Source: Deltaproteobacteria bacterium IMCC39524
GTDB taxonomy: Bacteria; Desulfobacterota; Desulfuromonadia; Desulfuromonadales; BM103
Direction: 5' to 3'
DNA length: 64,000 nt
Assembly (NCBI GenBank): GCA_029667085.1
Contig: JARUHJ010000001.1
Location: 682,001-746,000 of the forward strand
Shown here: one piece after another, positions 28,511-45,655 of the stretch
Layout: every line of letters starts with the position of its first letter
Numbering within the stretch: the stretch's first letter is position 1
Notes under the pieces: generated by a model
The model's database searches: none
Seen by the model: only the letters and a program-made list of their open reading frames with translations
Told to the model about the DNA's origin: nothing
Program-made: the position numbers and the translations under genes

Positions 28511-30223
28511 TTATTGGGGCAAAGGACAGGTCTCGTGCTGCATAAATGAGGTCAGGTTGTCAGCGGATTGCGGTGGCGAGAAATAAAAGCCCTGGATTTC
28601 GCTGCAGCGGGACGCGTAGAGATAATTAAACTGTTTGCGCGTCTCGACGCCCTCGGCGATCACTTCGAGATTGAGACTGCAGGCTAGGCCTATAATCGCC
28701 TCGACGATGGCCATATCTTCGGTATCGTCGGGAATGTCCTGAACAAATTCCTGGGCAATCTTGATGCGATCGAAAGGGAATTTCTTCAAATACAGCAGCG
28801 AAGAATAACCGGTTCCGAAATCATCAATGGCCAGTTTGATATGGCGGACCTTGAGGTCTGTCAGTCGCTCGAGACCCTGCTCGATATCTTCCATAACCAG
28901 ACTTTCCGTCAACTCAATCTCAAGATAGTTCGGATCGAGCCCGGAATCTTCCAGAATGCCCTCGACCATTTCGATAAAATCGTGCCGCCGAAACTGGGTC
29001 GCGGAGACATTGACGGCCATACGAACCTTTGGAAGGCCAGCATCATGCCAGGTTTTGGCTTGAGCACACGCTGTTGAGAGGACCCATTCACCAAGGGAGT
29101 AGATCAACCCGCTCTCTTCGGCGACCTTGATGAATTCTGTCGGTGGGATCAGGCCATGTTCAGGATCCCGCCAACGGGCCAGAGCTTCATAACCACACAC
29201 TTTCCGGGTACGAATGTCAAACTGAGGTTGATACTCAAGAAAGAAGGCCCCCTCCTTAAAAGATTTGCGCATACGATTTTCCATACCGAGCTTGGCGAGA
29301 ACCCGCTCATTCATATCTCCGGAATAAAACTGGTAGGTATTGCGGCCGAGATTTTTGGCGGCATACATGGCGGTATCGGCATTTCGCAGCAGGGTGTCAA
29401 CATCCTTGCCGTCCATAGGATAAATAGCAATGCCGATACTGGCACTATTGAAGACCTCTACCCCCTCAAGGGTGACCGGTTGTGCCAGGGCCTCGAGGAA
29501 ACGTTGGGCAAAATGCGGCGGTTCATCATCGGAATCGAATCCATAGAGAACGATGACAAATTCATCGCCACCGATCCGCGCCACCGTGTCACCCTGACGC
29601 ACACAGCGCTGCAGTTTACTGGCAACCTTTTTAAGCAGCTGGTCGCCACAGGCATGGCCGAGCGTATCATTGACCCATTTGAAGCGATCCAGGTCGACAA
29701 AGAGCACCCCGACCTCATTTTCGTCACGTTGCGCCTGACTCAGAGCGTGTTGCAGTCGTTCTTCAAGCAAAAAGCGGTTCGGCTGCCCGGTGAGAATATC
29801 GTAGTGGGCGAGACGTTGCACCTCTTCTTCCGCCTTTTTGCGTTCCGTCACATCAACGATTCCCGCCATGCTGTAGAGAAAGTTTCCCTCCTCATCGCGT
29901 ACGGATTTGGCAGAGATCAAAACATCAATAGCCTCACCGTTCTTTTTAAGCATCTGGTAAGGGATGTCGACAACCGAACCCGCTTTGAAAAAATGTGGCA
30001 GGATGGTCTCTTCGGCGAAGATTTTGGACTCCTCTGTAAAAAAATCGGTCAGTTTTTTACCAATAACTTCATCACGGCTGTACTCAAGTTTTTCCAACCA
30101 GCTATTACTGACGCTGAGCAGAGACCCATTGACATCGATCGAGTGCATCATCATCGGAGTATTCTGATAAAGAGACTGGAAATCTTGGGGTAGCTGGGGA
30201 AAGCTTTTGCGTGAGCCATTCAT
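28511..30223 (-). CDS. PAS-GGDEF-EAL cyclic-di-GMP turnover protein
   Basis: A 570-residue cytosolic protein from the ATG at 30223 (CAGGAG upstream). It has an N-terminal PAS domain (about 15-130) and an R-x-x-D inhibitory site five residues before the active RIGGDEF motif. Its EAL domain carries YEALARW, L-T-E-S and IDDFGTGYSS. The GGDEF domain has N-D-T-L-G-H-A-C-G-D; the Asp ending G-H-x-x-G-D is the residue that is Ser in hybrid cyclases making cyclic GMP-AMP, so this one should make cyclic di-GMP. Both active sites look intact. No transmembrane segment is seen; the PAS domain is the sensor. Confidence 0.93.
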   Translation of the reverse strand: MNGSRKSFPQLPQDFQSLYQNTPMMMHSIDVNGSLLSVSNSWLEKLEYSRDEVIGKKLTDFFTEESKIFAEETILPHFFKAGSVVDIPYQMLKKNGEAIDVLISAKSVRDEEGNFLYSMAGIVDVTERKKAEEEVQRLAHYDILTGQPNRFLLEERLQHALSQAQRDENEVGVLFVDLDRFKWVNDTLGHACGDQLLKKVASKLQRCVRQGDTVARIGGDEFVIVLYGFDSDDEPPHFAQRFLEALAQPVTLEGVEVFNSASIGIAIYPMDGKDVDTLLRNADTAMYAAKNLGRNTYQFYSGDMNERVLAKLGMENRMRKSFKEGAFFLEYQPQFDIRTRKVCGYEALARWRDPEHGLIPPTEFIKVAEESGLIYSLGEWVLSTACAQAKTWHDAGLPKVRMAVNVSATQFRRHDFIEMVEGILEDSGLDPNYLEIELTESLVMEDIEQGLERLTDLKVRHIKLAIDDFGTGYSSLLYLKKFPFDRIKIAQEFVQDIPDDTEDMAIVEAIIGLACSLNLEVIAEGVETRKQFNYLYASRCSEIQGFYFSPPQSADNLTSFMQHETCPLPQ

Positions 30224-30597
30224 CGGCGACTCCTGACACAAGCTGACACTCCTGAAGGGATTGCATCGAACCGGCAAAGGGTACCTATGAAATTTGACAG
30301 AAAATCCTGACGTGTCAAATCAACGCTAAGCAGAGGGTGATAATTTGTAATAAGCCAGACTAGATCTAACACCCATTGTCAGATTTAGTTGCGTTCCGTA
30401 GAGAAAATTGTCGCCATTTTCTCCATTAGGGTTTGCAATAATTCAGCATTTCTGACCAATATTCCGATCCAAAACAATGCGAGAGGACAAATATAACGAT
30501 TGCACTTTTACTTTTCTAGAAACTACCAAAGACAATGGGGCTAACGGTTTCGTTAGCCCCTTAACAACTTTAAAGAGTGTTTATGGAGGAGGCGACA
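30224..30597. other. Intergenic region with a perfect hairpin
   Basis: Holds the promoter side of the GGDEF-EAL gene and the 3' side of mucR. The only structure is the hairpin at 30537-30560. Base composition becomes AT-rich from here to about 34 kb. Confidence 0.5.
30537..30560 (-). terminator. Hairpin downstream of the MucR gene
   Basis: GGGGCTAACG pairs perfectly with CGTTAGCCCC around a GTTT loop, 38 bases beyond the MucR stop. No long T-run follows on the minus strand, so termination is probable rather than certain. Confidence 0.6.
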
Positions 30598-35781: not shown

Positions 35782-36270
35782 ATGATGAGAAGAAAACTGG
35801 TTTTCATTCTGGCCGCCGCACTCATCCTGGTGGCCTCGCCGGTGCTGGCCCTGTCCGTGGGCGACCAAGCGCCGAATTTCACGTCACAGACCAACCAGGG
35901 CAAGGTGTCGCTGGCAGATTACCTAGGGAAAAAGAATGTCATCCTGACGTTTTACTTCGCTATTTACACCCCTGCTTGAAAAACCACTACGCTGGGCTTT
36001 CAGAGGGACATGGCGACCCTGGAAGCTCTCAATACCCAGGTCATGGGTATCAGTGGAGACAGCATGGACACGGTCAAACGTTTCGCTGCTGAGTTTGCCA
36101 TCACCTACCCTTTGGTCAGTGACTCAGGAGGAGCGATCAAGAAACTCTATTCCGGAGAACGTATCAATTACCTGATAGACAAGACTGGCAGGATCCGTTT
36201 GATCGTCAGAGGGGTTCCTGACAACAGCCTGATTATCGACAAAATCAAAGCACTCGGCCTTGATAACTAA
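35782..36270 (+). CDS. Exported peroxiredoxin with selenocysteine (in-frame UGA)
   Basis: AAGGAGGTAT precedes ATG-ATG at 35782. The frame is open to 36270 except for one TGA at 35977-35979 (codon 66). Before it: signal peptide (FILAAALILVASPVLA) and G-D-Q-A-P-N-F-T, K-N-V-I-L-T-F-Y-F. After it the peroxiredoxin fold continues without a break (VMGISGDSMDTVKRFA, INYLIDKTGRIR, GVPDN). The TGA is exactly where the peroxidatic Cys of P-x-x-x-T-x-x-C stands (I-Y-T-P-A-TGA), and the protein has no cysteine at all. Translation as Sec gives a 162-residue periplasmic peroxidase. Automatic callers will split it into 35710-35979 and 36010-36270. Confidence 0.88.
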
Positions 36271-36325
36271 AACGTTAAAGCCGATTCGCAAGACAATTCC
36301 TCTATTTTCAATGACACATAGAATA

Positions 36326-36360
36326 AAGAATGGCCCGTCCTTATTGGATGGGCCATTCTT
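36326..36360 (+). terminator. Intrinsic-type hairpin after the exported peroxiredoxin
   Basis: AAGAATGGCCCGTCC pairs with GGATGGGCCATTCTT (one G-T pair) around TTATT, followed by TT-G-T. It is a 15-base stem 55 bases after the stop. Confidence 0.75.
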
Positions 36361-36661
36361 GTATTCCAAGGTATTCAGGAATCGGCCAGATCCGCAGGAT
36401 TTGACTCTCAATAGTTGCTGACACAACTTTTGATACATCCTAACATTCGATAACTCTGGTAGGTTGACGAGTGTGTCAGTTTTTTTTGTGACCGATATTT
36501 TTAGGTTAATTATGGCTGATAGCTACAAGTCCTCCTTAAAGCTGAGGGTGACTTTTTTGTCTTGCTTACAACTTCGATCAGGAAGAAGATCTTGTGCATC
36601 GAACATCCCTCCAAATGAACAAATAAATACCCTTTCATTAAGACACTTGTCTGCTCAGGTT

Positions 36662-36667
36662 TATAAT
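36662..36667 (+). promoter_or_regulatory. Probable -10 element of the riboswitch transcript
   Basis: A consensus TATAAT lies about 30 bases before the aptamer. No good -35 hexamer is present at 16-18 bases, so an activator may be needed. Confidence 0.4.
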
Positions 36668-36695
36668 GTTAAATTAACACCCAACCACTTAAGTT

Positions 36696-36790
36696 TAAGA
36701 AGCTCCGATAATAGCAAAACCGATGCGAGTCGGTGACGCAAAGCCACGGGTCCCTTGAGGATAGCCGGGTTACCGAAGAGTGAGTAACTT
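36696..36790 (+). promoter_or_regulatory. GEMM-I riboswitch aptamer, A-type (cyclic GMP-AMP-like)
   Basis: All conserved parts are present in order. AGCAAAA precedes a stem ACCGAT/GTCGGT capped by a GCGA (GNRA) tetraloop. GACGCAAAGCC follows, then a short P3 stem (TCC/GGA), then GGATAGCCGGGTTACCG. The base equivalent to G20 of the Vibrio cyclic-di-GMP aptamer (just before G-C-A-A-A) is A here. A at this place is the mark of the GEMM-Ib group that prefers 3',3'-cGAMP, known in Geobacter relatives. A terminator follows after 16 bases, and then a sensor kinase gene. Confidence 0.85.
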
Positions 36791-36806
36791 CATTGCTACC
36801 AACTTT

Positions 36807-36845
36807 GCTCGCCTCGGTATTTGAGAGCGAGTTTTTTTGTTTTTT
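36807..36845 (+). terminator. Expression-platform terminator of the riboswitch
   Basis: CTCGC-CTC pairs with GAG-A-GCGAG around GGTATTT and is followed by seven T, a G and six T. It lies between the aptamer and the kinase start, 95 bases ahead of the latter. Ligand binding probably decides whether it forms. Confidence 0.88.
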
Positions 36846-36939
36846 AACTTACAAACATAACGAAAACTCTCAACCTACTGAAAAAAGTGGTTTTCGTTTA
36901 TTCTACACTTGCGTTGCATCTATTACGGGGAAGGTTACG

Positions 36940-38757
36940 ATGACAATCGGCATGACAATCAAGGCCCGCTTTTTTCTGACGATTATCGTCGTGGCCGTAC
37001 TAAGCAGCGTTTGCATGGGAATCTATTCCTACCAGAACCAATCCGCGCAACTGTTGCAACGGTTCGAGAATCTGGCTGACCAGGAGAACCAATTGCTCAG
37101 GACGATCTTGGATGCTGATGCCGAAGGGTTACGTCGCGCAACCTCGGGTCTCAGCCGCCTGGAAGCGTTCCTCACCCCGCTCGCGGCCGAGGACCGGGAG
37201 GCCCTACTGACGGTTGCTAGGCCCATTTTTGACGAACTCAAGGCCAAACACTCCATCACCCATATGTATTTCATTGCTCCTGATGGCAAGGTTCTGCTGC
37301 GTGTGCACATGCCGGAGCAGCATGGAGACAGCCTGGAGCGGGCCACTTTCCTGCAGGCAGTGGCAACCAAAGAGACGGCCAGCGGACTTGAAATGGGGAA
37401 GAATTTCTTTTCACTGCGCTGCGTCACTCCAATCCTGGCTGACGGTGAGCTGCTCGGCTACCTGGAGGTGGCCGAGGAGATCGACCATGTTTTCGTGCGG
37501 ATGAAGGAAATTACAGGACACGACGTTGCCCTGTTCCTTCCGATAGAATATATCGAGAGGTTCGACACCGACCTAGAGGTCCTAGACGGCAGCGATTTCA
37601 CCGTGCTCTATCCGAGCAGCCCACAGCTAGTCATTTCGTCCGACCCACAGAGAAACGATTTTCTGCCGTCGGGGCTGAAGACTTTTGTAGTGAAAGCTGT
37701 CGAGCTCGACGAAAAACACTATGTCGTCGGTGCAGGGCCGATCAAGGATGCCTTTGGAGAAACAGCCGGGGTACTCTTATCCCAGAAGAATGTCACCCGA
37801 CACTATGATTCAATCTGGCATGGAGTGGTGACCAGCCTGACGGTTTTTATTGTAATCCTGCTCAGCGGCAATCTGCTCCTCTGGCTTTCCATGAAGAAGA
37901 GCATGAATTTCTTTCTTGCGGTACGTAGCCACATCCAGAAGGTGACCCGCACCTGGGACGTTGACCAGAGGCTGGAGGTGGTCACTACCGATGAGATCGG
38001 CGAACTTGCCGAAGATCTTAACCGAATGCAGGTTGAGATCGGCAAGCTAAGAAACTCGCTGGTGAATCAAGCCGATGAACTAATGATGGCCAACCAGGAA
38101 CTGGAATCGTTCAGCTATACCCTTTCCCATGATCTGCGGACACCGCTGACTCGCGCCTATGCGGCAGCCGATATTCTCGTGGAGAGCTATGGCGACAGCC
38201 TCGATGAAACCGGACGTTTGCTCCTCGACAACATCTGTAAGGGGTGTGAGGGAATGGAGGGTCTGATCGAGGCGATCCTGGTCCTATCCAACATCGTTCG
38301 CAAAGAGCTTCACAGTGAGACCCTCGATTTCGCCGTCATGGCACGGGATATTGTCGAGGAGTTGACGATGGCTGAACCGGAGCGCAAGGTGGTCACTGTT
38401 ATCCCTGAAACGCTGGTTTGCACGGGTGACCAGCAACTGTTGAGGGTGGCGCTGAGAAATCTCTTGGAAAACGCCTGGAAATACTCCCGGGGCGAGGCGG
38501 AAGCGAAGATCGAACTCGGCATGATCGAGCAGCAGGGGAAATCGGTCTTCTACGTCCGAGATAACGGCGTCGGGTTCAATATGCAGCACGCTGCAAATCT
38601 CTTCACCACTTTCAAGCGATTGCATGATGCCAGCGAGTACCCAGGAACCGGCATCGGCCTGGCCACAGTGCAGAAGATCATCCAGCGGCATGGCGGCACT
38701 ATCTGGGGCGTTGGCAAAGAAGGCGAGGGAGCTACCTTTTTCTTTACCTTGCCCTGA
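36940..38757 (+). CDS. Riboswitch-controlled membrane sensor histidine kinase
   Basis: About 605 residues from the ATG at 36940 (GGGGAAGG upstream); the longer frame runs into the terminator. Order: membrane helix 1 (about 10-29), a large periplasmic sensor with dCache-like pattern (about 32-290), helix 2 (near 295-315), HAMP, coiled coil, HisKA with LSHDLRTPLTRAYA (His near 385), and HATPase with N-L-L-E-N-A-W-K-Y, R-D-N-G-V-G-F and GTGIGLATVQ. The catalytic parts are intact. No response regulator gene is adjacent, so it is an orphan kinase. Transcription should depend on the upstream cyclic-dinucleotide riboswitch. Confidence 0.93.
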   Translation: MTIGMTIKARFFLTIIVVAVLSSVCMGIYSYQNQSAQLLQRFENLADQENQLLRTILDADAEGLRRATSGLSRLEAFLTPLAAEDREALLTVARPIFDELKAKHSITHMYFIAPDGKVLLRVHMPEQHGDSLERATFLQAVATKETASGLEMGKNFFSLRCVTPILADGELLGYLEVAEEIDHVFVRMKEITGHDVALFLPIEYIERFDTDLEVLDGSDFTVLYPSSPQLVISSDPQRNDFLPSGLKTFVVKAVELDEKHYVVGAGPIKDAFGETAGVLLSQKNVTRHYDSIWHGVVTSLTVFIVILLSGNLLLWLSMKKSMNFFLAVRSHIQKVTRTWDVDQRLEVVTTDEIGELAEDLNRMQVEIGKLRNSLVNQADELMMANQELESFSYTLSHDLRTPLTRAYAAADILVESYGDSLDETGRLLLDNICKGCEGMEGLIEAILVLSNIVRKELHSETLDFAVMARDIVEELTMAEPERKVVTVIPETLVCTGDQQLLRVALRNLLENAWKYSRGEAEAKIELGMIEQQGKSVFYVRDNGVGFNMQHAANLFTTFKRLHDASEYPGTGIGLATVQKIIQRHGGTIWGVGKEGEGATFFFTLP

Positions 38758-43048: not shown

Positions 43049-45655
43049 TCAGTCGTCGTCAAGCACCTTACGCACTGTCAGTGCCAAAGCCTGCTTGGTC
43101 AAAGGTTTCATGACAAACTGCTTGATTCCAACCGCCTTGGCTGTCTCGTCGGAGGTGGTCGCACTGAACCCGGTACAAAGGATAATTGGAATATCCGGCC
43201 TGACCTTAAGGATCTGCTCAGACAATTGCATTCCGGTGATGATTGGCATGGTCTGATCCGTGAAGATCAGATCAAAGGCTTGTGGATCGGAGCGAAACAA
43301 CCCCAATGCATCCACACCGCTTGTCGCGATTGTGACTTCATAACCAAGCGATGCCAGGATTTTCTGGCCCAGGCTAACCAGAGCCTCTTCATCATCGACA
43401 AAAAGTATGCGCTCCTTGCCCTTGGGTAGCGTCTCCGGTTCAGGAACCTCTCGAACCACTTCATTAAAAAGTCGAGGCAGGTAAACCGTGAACATAGTCC
43501 CCTGCCCCGGTGTTGCCTCCACGGTTATTGCCCCACCATGGCCCATGATGATGCCATGCACCACGGAGAGCCCCAGCCCACTGCCTTCACCAAACTTCTT
43601 AGTCGTGAAATAGGGCTCGAAAATATGTTCAAGTGTAGCCTGTCCCATACCGTGGCCTGTGTCAGAAATGGCAAGACGAACATAGGCCCCTTCATTAAGC
43701 TCTGGCGAGGAGGACGCGAGTTCAGCGTCCACATGAAGATTGTCCAGGGTCACCTTGAGAGTTCCGCCATTTTCCTGCATAGCGTGGCAGGCATTGGTCC
43801 CCAGGTTCATAATGACCTGGTGAATCTGGGTTGGGTCAGCGAGTACCGGGTCGGCATCTTCGTTGATCTCCAGGCAAATCTTGATTGTCTTCGGGATGGT
43901 TGCACGCAGCAGTTCAAGAGCCTCCTTGATGATCGGGTTGATCAAGGTCGGCGTACGATCTTGCTCCGTCTGTTGACCAAACATCAGAATCTTCTGTACC
44001 AACTCTTTGGCGCGGTGGGCGGCCTTCAAAACTTCTCTCAAGGGAGACTGGTTCTGTGAGCCACCCGGCAGATCAGACATGGCGAATTCTGTATAACCGA
44101 TTACAGCCGTCAGGATGTTGTTAAAGTCATGGGCGATGCCGCCTGCGAGCGTTCCAACAGCCTCAATTCTCTGGCTCTGTCGGAGCTGTTTTTCCAGTGA
44201 TCTCTGCTCTGTAATATCGGCATAAATGCCGAGTATGCCAACCACCTCTCCGGCTTCGTTGCGCAGAGGAACCTTGCTGGTCAACAAGATGGCGTTTCTG
44301 CCATCAGCCTGAAGTTGCGGTTCTTCGATATCGAGTAACGGTTCACCACTCTCCATAACGTCCTGATCGCATTGACGGTAAAATTCGGCCTCTTTTTTTT
44401 CCCAGGCCAGATCAAAGTCAGTTTTGCCAACAATGTTTTCCGGCGTGCCGATCCCTGCCACTTTAGCAAAATTCAGATTGCAGCCCTGGAATACGCAATT
44501 ACGGTCCTTCCAGAAAACATAATGAGGGATATTATTAAGGATGTTCGCCAACAGGACATTCTTGTCTGAGAGTCTTCGTTGAGCTGTTTTGCGTTCGCTG
44601 ATGTCCCGGATTGATTCAATGGCACCAACGTAATTGCCCTCTTGATCAAGCAGGGGTGAAGCGGTGGCCCATAAATTGGCGTTTTTGCCGCTAGAGGAGA
44701 GGGTTAGAGTCGTTTCAGCAAAAAGGGTGACGCCATTTTTTTCCAAATAATCATAGTGCCCGCTGGTTTTAGAAATGTCACTATAAACAGCATCGATCAA
44801 CATGGGGCACCGCTTACCGTAGAACGCCATGGAGTATTCGTAGCTGCCTTTGCCGAGGACGGCATCTTTATGCACAGAGGTCATTTCCTCCATGGCACGG
44901 TTCCATGCCACGACCTTGCCGTCCCGGTCGATAACGAAGGTCGCATCAGGCAAGAATTCAACAATGTCCAGTAATTGCCTGTGGGCAATTCGAAGTTCTT
45001 TTTCGGCCTTGCGCTGCTGAGCCGATGCCCGTTTCGATTGAAAACCGAAGAACACCGAAGCCAGCAACACTCCAGTACCGACCAGGAACAGGAAAACCGA
45101 TGACTTATGGATGAGATTATCCAGGGCCGCCTTGCGTTCGGTGATGTTGTAATCGATCTCAACCGCACCGACAAATTGCCCGGCGCGCCTGATCGGTACG
45201 CAGGTCTGTACCACAGAGGCCTTCGCAGGGTTCCCTTCCGGGGAGAGATAGGAGAGATAACTCACTTTGGTGTAAGTCCCTCCCTTGGCGACCTTTTCGA
45301 CGAAAAAGGCCTGACGATTGATCCGGTTGATCTCCTCGCTGGCCGTTGAAAAGGTAATATGCCCATCCGCGGAGAAGATTCTGAGGTTCACCAGACCAAA
45401 GGTACGCTTTACCTCGTGCATCTCTCTGACCAGGTCACCGAAAGCAGGCTCTTCCAGCGGCATTCCCTCAATCTCCGGAAAAACAAAAGACGAGATATAC
45501 AGGGCGATCCGGGTGGTATCCTGCTCCGTTGCCGCGATCAGCATCCGGTAGACTGCCGGTTGTAGGTTGAAAATATTATAAGCCGGCAGCATGACCCCGG
45601 CCGAGGCGGCAATGAGCAGTGCAATGGCCAATAATTTTGTTTTTTGCATGATCAT
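43049..45655 (-). CDS. Hybrid sensor histidine kinase with two PAS domains and a receiver
   Basis: An 868-residue protein. Order: membrane helix (about 8-27), a periplasmic sensor region (28-178) with an [18 protein letters not shown] segment, helix 2 (about 183-203), PAS 1 (about 225-345), PAS 2 (about 365-490), HisKA with [16 protein letters not shown], HATPase with [18 protein letters not shown] and [11 protein letters not shown], and a C-terminal receiver with D-D-E, the phospho-acceptor in F-T-D-Q-T-M-P and a late K-P-L. All catalytic residues are in place. No DNA-binding output gene is adjacent, so the phosphate receiver is elsewhere. Confidence 0.94.

Follow-up and report, generated by a model that had tools for sequence, protein, structure and literature searches.

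The window analyzed here, a 64-kb stretch of the 3.78 Mb genome of Deltaproteobacteria bacterium IMCC39524 (C1:682001-746000), an uncultured relative of metal-respiring bacteria, contains a GEMM-I riboswitch followed by an intrinsic terminator and a membrane sensor histidine kinase. We propose that the riboswitch is a transcription-terminating OFF switch controlling this orphan dCache kinase, and that its ligand is most likely 3',3'-cyclic GMP-AMP (cGAMP) made by GGDEF proteins of the Ser (Hypr) type; taken whole, this reading has in our estimate a probability of about 0.47. By computation we found the aptamer, its adenine at the position equivalent to G20 of the cyclic di-GMP (c-di-GMP) aptamer (A20), the terminator, an alternative pairing, the kinase and, in the host genome, Ser-type GGDEF sequences. 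From these we infer the identity of the ligand, the sign of regulation, the transcription start and the kinase as physiological output.

The riboswitch and its predicted OFF sign

A covariance search (cmscan) gave a single Rfam match above cut-off in the whole window, to RF01051 (c-di-GMP-I, GEMM-I) at 36703-36777 on the forward strand, covering the full model (63.3 bits, E 4.9e-10; the cut-off is 35). The preliminary description, made from the letters alone, had named a full GEMM-I aptamer from its motifs, including a GNRA-capped stem, and had called for such a search; the aptamer is borne out and so are the motifs, with a GCGA loop on a P2 of the GC type. The base preceding the GC of P2, model position 11, is A at 36713. 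In PMC6274999 the cGAMP riboswitch is given as A14-C15...G40-A41, C75 (this and the other publications named below are cited from those portions of their text that were available to us). By our own mapping, A14 of that numbering falls on model position 11, and for this reason 36713 is taken as the G20 equivalent, where an A had indeed been reported. With a score above cut-off and an expression platform ahead of a gene, the window RNA is a GEMM-I riboswitch, and by its A20 it would be filed under the cGAMP subclass GEMM-Ib. The c-di-GMP-I-GGC variant (RF03167) was also tried and ruled out, with 58.9 bits against a cut-off of 59 and an A at both positions where the variant has a consensus G.

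Downstream, a stem at 36807-36832 (-12.5 kcal/mol) and the T tract that follows it form the intrinsic terminator noted before, although a simple scan overlooked it. Its 5' arm begins 29 nt past the aptamer, and the two can form side by side. The 3' strand of the aptamer can also pair, at -18.4 kcal/mol, with positions 36808-36817 in the 5' arm of the terminator, a strength reached by 0 of 200 shuffles; here and in the larger sets below, the shuffles preserve base composition only. Such an antiterminator pairing occupies the cytosine expected to pair with the ligand. In folds taken at 36832 the antiterminator is lowest (-42.5 kcal/mol), compared with -38.2 kcal/mol for P1 plus terminator.

We predict that the switch is OFF, with ligand lowering expression of the kinase, because its arrangement is that of the OFF switch Cd1, which has the same kind of antiterminator, and is unlike that of the ON switch pilM, where the terminator overlaps the aptamer (PMC9262584). 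The likeness to Cd1 of Clostridioides difficile extends to the separate terminator and to an antiterminator that uses the aptamer's 3' strand with its ligand-pairing C; the two differ in that Cd1 reads c-di-GMP and the window aptamer has A20. The ON-switch layout of Geobacter GEMM-Ib was not found in the window, where the terminator is separate and its 5' arm, as computed, pairs with the aptamer end. In this prediction layout and pairing weigh more than energy. A Cd1-type platform is suggested by a pairing beyond all 200 shuffles and by the lowest fold at 36832, with other folds within about 1 kcal/mol at 36818, 36826 and 36845.

The fold energies agree with the prediction by small margins, and this smallness counts against it. 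At 36832 a terminator fold without P1 already reaches -40.5 kcal/mol; at 36845 a third fold is lowest (-43.2 kcal/mol), followed by the antiterminator (-42.8) and the terminator fold (-42.2); and the antiterminator is bettered by other folds at 36818 (by 1.2 kcal/mol) and at 36826 (by 0.5 kcal/mol). Further, five of the ten host loci with A20, a GC-type P2 and a separate terminator (L015, L016, L025, L026 and L027) are without significant antiterminator pairing; the window locus has it.

The proposed OFF switch would work as follows. Transcription would start near 36670, and the aptamer would fold first. Without ligand, the incoming CUCGCCUCGG would capture the aptamer's 3' strand (CCGA...GUGAG) as an antiterminator, terminator closure would be blocked and the kinase would be made. 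With ligand, the 3' strand would be held in P1 and in the binding pocket, its C paired with the ligand, so that the CUCGCCUCGG strand could close the terminator and kinase synthesis would stop. The ligand in these steps would most likely be 3',3'-cGAMP from the host's Ser-type (Hypr) GGDEF enzymes, perhaps with a residual response to c-di-GMP.

The layout was compared across a genus set of 137 aptamers, comprising 38 RF01051 matches of the host genome (36 of them over cut-off and 16 of the 38 with A at the key position) and 99 from six related genomes. Platforms were classified for 136 of the 137, one having too little downstream sequence. Platform arrangement tracks P2 subtype in this set: aptamers with a GC-type P2 have a separate terminator in 57/73 cases, and those with a CC-type P2 a terminator overlapping the aptamer in 45/55. 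Each of the two subtypes, GC and CC, includes aptamers with A and aptamers with G at position 20. The layout bears on the possibility that the window RNA is an ON switch of the kind described for cGAMP in Geobacter, with an incidental pairing in place of an antiterminator, which we consider very unlikely. The GEMM-Ib switches of G. sulfurreducens do behave as ON switches (PMC6456294), and the antiterminator is favoured by small energy margins only; however, a pilM-like layout builds the 5' arm of the terminator into the aptamer, as in the CC majority just described, whereas the terminator of the window stands apart.

The 38 GEMM-I matches of the host stand against 13 GGDEF domains, and no genome among the 78 searched, the host being one of them, has more. 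Three similar aptamers lie within about 1.2 kb at C1:20949, C1:21168 and C1:22079, the third with core bases lost (34.8 bits).

A recurrent sensor kinase output

The gene behind the terminator encodes, as the preliminary description had it, a membrane histidine kinase, here resolved into 605 aa with the order dCache_3-HAMP-HisKA-HATPase_c. It was also rightly called an orphan: it has HisKA and HATPase_c, no response regulator gene adjoins it, and a scan limited to 17 of the proteins encoded by the window's open reading frames (ORFs) turned up no stand-alone response regulator. A hybrid kinase with a receiver is encoded at 43049-45655 on the opposite strand.

Metagenome-assembled genomes, two titled Desulfuromonadales and one Deltaproteobacteria, encode the three close named relatives (81-92% identity) that the kinase has. 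Among orthologues in related genomes (G numbers are our own handles), that of G003 also stands behind an A20 aptamer, with 44.8 bits and non-standard pairs. Other orthologues speak against a conserved control: the aptamer core in G004 is damaged and scores below cut-off (32.9 bits), and G007 and G032 have no aptamer 5' of their orthologues; the contig in G042 is too short to judge. These observations are what would be expected if the riboswitch were relaxed or nearly idle, the kinase being made mainly from another promoter, or if the element were being lost, and the low score and irregular pairs in G003 point the same way. On the other side, the window copy is intact at 63.3 bits, as are both the terminator and the antiterminator strands, and none of the three promoter-like sites that a scan found in 36280-37000 falls between terminator and kinase. 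We consider an idle switch improbable.

In the genus set, a histidine kinase is the first gene after 8 of the 48 A20 aptamers, in four architectures: three genomes have the dCache kinase, G005 (twice) and G007 (once) have a short membrane kinase, G005 also has a PAS kinase, and G009 has a PAS-GAF kinase. The flanks retrieved for a relative of the short kinase in G009 and for another in G001 held no aptamer match. One analysis of the set covered 27 of the 32 A20 first genes from outside the host, together with the window kinase. First genes were assigned automatically, so some short picks may be wrong frames, and at many loci the downstream stretch is only about 1 kb, perhaps too short to reveal a kinase with a long sensor part. 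After G20 aptamers a kinase comes first in 6/89 cases, one in each of six genomes including the host, with similar aptamer and leader. By raw count the enrichment is not significant (8/48 vs 6/89, Fisher p 0.08). A stronger point than the counts is the four architectures after A20, against what looks like one group after G20. The 8/48 kinases in four architectures refute a single, isolated association of aptamer and kinase, and the window switch thus belongs to an arrangement that recurs and is no oddity of one genome.

A second kinase of the host also stands behind a GEMM-I aptamer (L032, C5:312553-312631), followed by a HisKA kinase, an NtrC-type regulator and, further down, a heme-motif protein; similar aptamer-kinase pairs occur in five other members of the genus. 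This locus shares GEMM-I control of a sensor kinase with the window but has G20, a CC-type P2 and an ON-like overlap. The second kinase, the predicted OFF sign, the recurrence of kinase outputs and the decay or absence of the aptamer in some relatives all go beyond the preliminary description.

Which dinucleotide is read

We put the odds that the window aptamer prefers cGAMP at somewhat better than even. The host has 13 GGDEF domains, ten with Asp at the Hypr site and three with Ser, one of the latter in a protein with a degenerate motif. Ser together with a GGDEF motif is thus found in 2/13, at C9:53902-54414 and C4:481937-482407. One of these two proteins has a receiver-like N terminus (by reading) and one a GAF-like N terminus (by PDB matches). 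The best PDB match of the first is 6d9m, with 170 bits against 106 for the next; we take this entry to be a Geobacter Hypr structure. A Ser-type relative of the first protein is present in 30/30 tested genomes outside one family (f18). The only cyclase that had been noted in the window proves to be of the Asp type as stated (ORF 28511-30277, minus strand, PAS-GGDEF-EAL), and the suggestion that cGAMP would come from elsewhere in the genome is possible with the two Ser-type sequences. Since Ser in place of Asp plus the GGDEF motif is the Hypr signature (PMC6456294), both are candidate cGAMP enzymes.

At the level of the order, exact patterns placed A20/GC aptamers in at least 58/136 genomes, G20/GC in at least 93/136 and A20/CC in at least 5/136, lower bounds that include a few chance matches; a G108 match to the A20/CC pattern looks like one. 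For A20/GC, 79 of the 94 pattern matches were kept (10 were loci already in the set, and 5 with an unclear 3' end or a spurious look were dropped), three of them from the host's own genus (L182, L186 and L187). Terminators were separate in 68/77 classified loci, and 40 of those 68 had aptamer-end pairing at p<=0.05. In a control of 40 G20/GC matches outside the genus, chosen for spread among the matches listed, 29/40 had a separate terminator and 19/29 the pairing. The platform classifier errs at times, the overlap assigned to L222, L226 and L227 looking separate by eye.

The outputs behind these two kinds of aptamer differ. A domain scan covered 66/79 first genes after A20/GC aptamers, three lacking a usable open frame and ten being left out, among them a receiver-PilZ gene (L179). 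Response_reg was found in 12/66 of these first genes and in at most 1/40 after G20/GC, where fn3 (8/40) and other surface domains head the list. Fisher tests of such output differences gave 0.003-0.016, with orthologues counted without removal. GGDEF was not significantly commoner after A20/GC (9/66 vs 2/40, p 0.20).

Other results count against cGAMP as the ligand or are ambiguous. In all six readable cases the GGDEF gene behind an A20/GC aptamer encodes Asp at the Hypr site, as would fit cross-talk and feedback by c-di-GMP alike. Base 20 differs in 13/103 pairs of similar first genes, eight of these pairs being one receiver-PilZ gene and one a tandem array on a single gene. Family f18 has neither A20/GC aptamers (0/14, exact pattern) nor a close relative of the first Ser-GGDEF protein (0/14). 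Published A-variants show dual binding: the natural variant of Desulfobacca acquired affinity for c-AMP-GMP and lost perhaps only a little of that for c-di-GMP (PMC9481103), and the omcST switch is reported to sense both dinucleotides (PMC6456294). A20 alone does not fix ligand preference (PMC9481103).

It is therefore possible, though at distinctly less than even odds, that the window RNA is likewise an OFF switch whose main cellular ligand is c-di-GMP or both dinucleotides, A20/GC marking a partial change of specificity. The Asp-type GGDEF genes behind A20/GC aptamers are what c-di-GMP feedback predicts, and the changes at base 20 between related switches, the dual-binding variants and the 10/13 Asp-type domains of the host all favour it. 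However, the different outputs of A20/GC and G20/GC aptamers across the order are difficult to reconcile with both reading c-di-GMP in the same way, and the Ser-type GGDEF is conserved. Co-occurrence within hosts was tried as a test of the ligand and rejected. Family f18, without A20/GC aptamers or a close relative of the first Ser-GGDEF, yet keeps another Ser-GGDEF in 10/14 best loci (the same type by length and reading) and has few G20/GC aptamers (4/14), and for these reasons co-occurrence does not decide the ligand.

Base 20 itself varies between close relatives. An aptamer of the host (C12:20354) and one of G005 (C26:97845) show only two differences in 75 bases and differ at base 20, G in the host and A in G005, and the first open frames behind them are 92% identical over 79 aa; with such near-identical natural aptamers the effect of base 20 could be tested directly in native leaders. 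Before the receiver-PilZ gene (L003, C6:63228-63321, in the host; L178, L179, L182 and G009:C56 elsewhere), base 20 is G in G000 and G004 and A in the four other relatives compared. In G007, a G20 and an A20 aptamer stand in tandem before one gene (C268:559-639 and 805-891) and might read two messengers.

The window switch can be set beside known systems. The GEMM-Ib switches of Geobacter (Gs1761 pgcA, pilM) have in common with it the GEMM-I fold, A20, an intrinsic terminator and a host with Ser-type GGDEF sequences, but they are ON switches, many of them before cytochrome, pilus and polysaccharide genes (PMC6456294, PMC9262584), whereas the window switch is predicted OFF and precedes a kinase. 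The P2 of the switch modelled in PMC6274999 is probably of the CC type, as its numbering suggests, and that of the window of the GC type. The A-variant of Desulfobacca acetoxidans is likewise a natural A20 GEMM-I aptamer outside Geobacter; it lies in tandem with an adenosylcobalamin (AdoCbl) switch and is predicted ON by its authors (PMC9481103), in contrast to the window switch. Our literature search, whose scope left out Kellenberger 2015 and Nelson 2015, met neither an OFF-type cGAMP riboswitch nor one before a sensor kinase, and we make no claim of absence in print. In the literature examined, cGAMP riboswitches raise expression, mostly of electron-transfer genes. If the window switch reads cGAMP, it would lower expression instead and act on another kind of target, a receptor kinase, and one messenger would set the sensitivity of another signalling system.

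A broader proposal, which we put forward tentatively and would not back at even odds, is that the order holds a large set of cGAMP OFF switches (A20/GC, Cd1-type). In response to rising cGAMP these would silence signalling proteins, namely sensor kinases, receivers, cyclases and chemoreceptors; G20 switches built alike would serve c-di-GMP and surface adhesins, and a single A/G change at base 20 would swap the messenger between sister species.

Leader features and a neighbouring gene

The features of the leader and the kinase gene are collected in Table 1. The promoter-like site just 5' of the aptamer is weak, as the three such sites in 36280-37000 compare with 1.5 (sd 1.1) in shuffles.

Table 1. 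Coordinates of the riboswitch, its leader and the kinase gene, as positions in the window.
Feature	Position	Strand	Basis
Promoter-like AAGACA-16-TATAAT just 5' of the aptamer	36640..36667	+	pattern scan, 10/12 matches
P1, GCUC 36702-36705 with GAGU 36778-36781	36702..36781	+	folding
GEMM-I (c-di-GMP-I) aptamer, P2 GC type, A at the G20 position (36713)	36703..36777	+	RF01051, 63.3 bits
Aptamer 3' strand, CCGA 36773-36776 (holds the C92 equivalent) and GUGAG 36780-36784; predicted to enter the liganded aptamer or the antiterminator	36773..36784	+	pairing/folding
Intrinsic terminator; 5' arm CUCGC-C-UCGG (36808-36817) doubles as putative antiterminator partner	36807..36838	+	folding, pairing
Inverted repeat (eight bases) ACGAAAAC...GTTTTCGT in the leader, past the terminator and ahead of the kinase	36860..36897	+	reading
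Ribosome-binding site GGGGAAGG	36927..36934	+	by reading
Membrane sensor histidine kinase, 605 aa (dCache_3, HAMP, HisKA, HATPase_c), ATG 36940 after GGGGAAGG	36940..38757	+	domain scan

The inverted repeat ACGAAAAC...GTTTTCGT is kept, with small changes, 5' of the kinase orthologues of G003 and G004.

Upstream of the riboswitch, a peroxiredoxin-like gene at 35785-36270 on the forward strand has an AhpC-TSA match in its downstream half, and its frame is open both before and after a TGA at 35977-35979. This TGA stands in the context TPA-stop-K and is possibly a selenocysteine codon; we take its position to be the site of the peroxidatic Cys in such proteins. For the surrounding 71 nt of RNA the raw folding energy is -19.0 kcal/mol.

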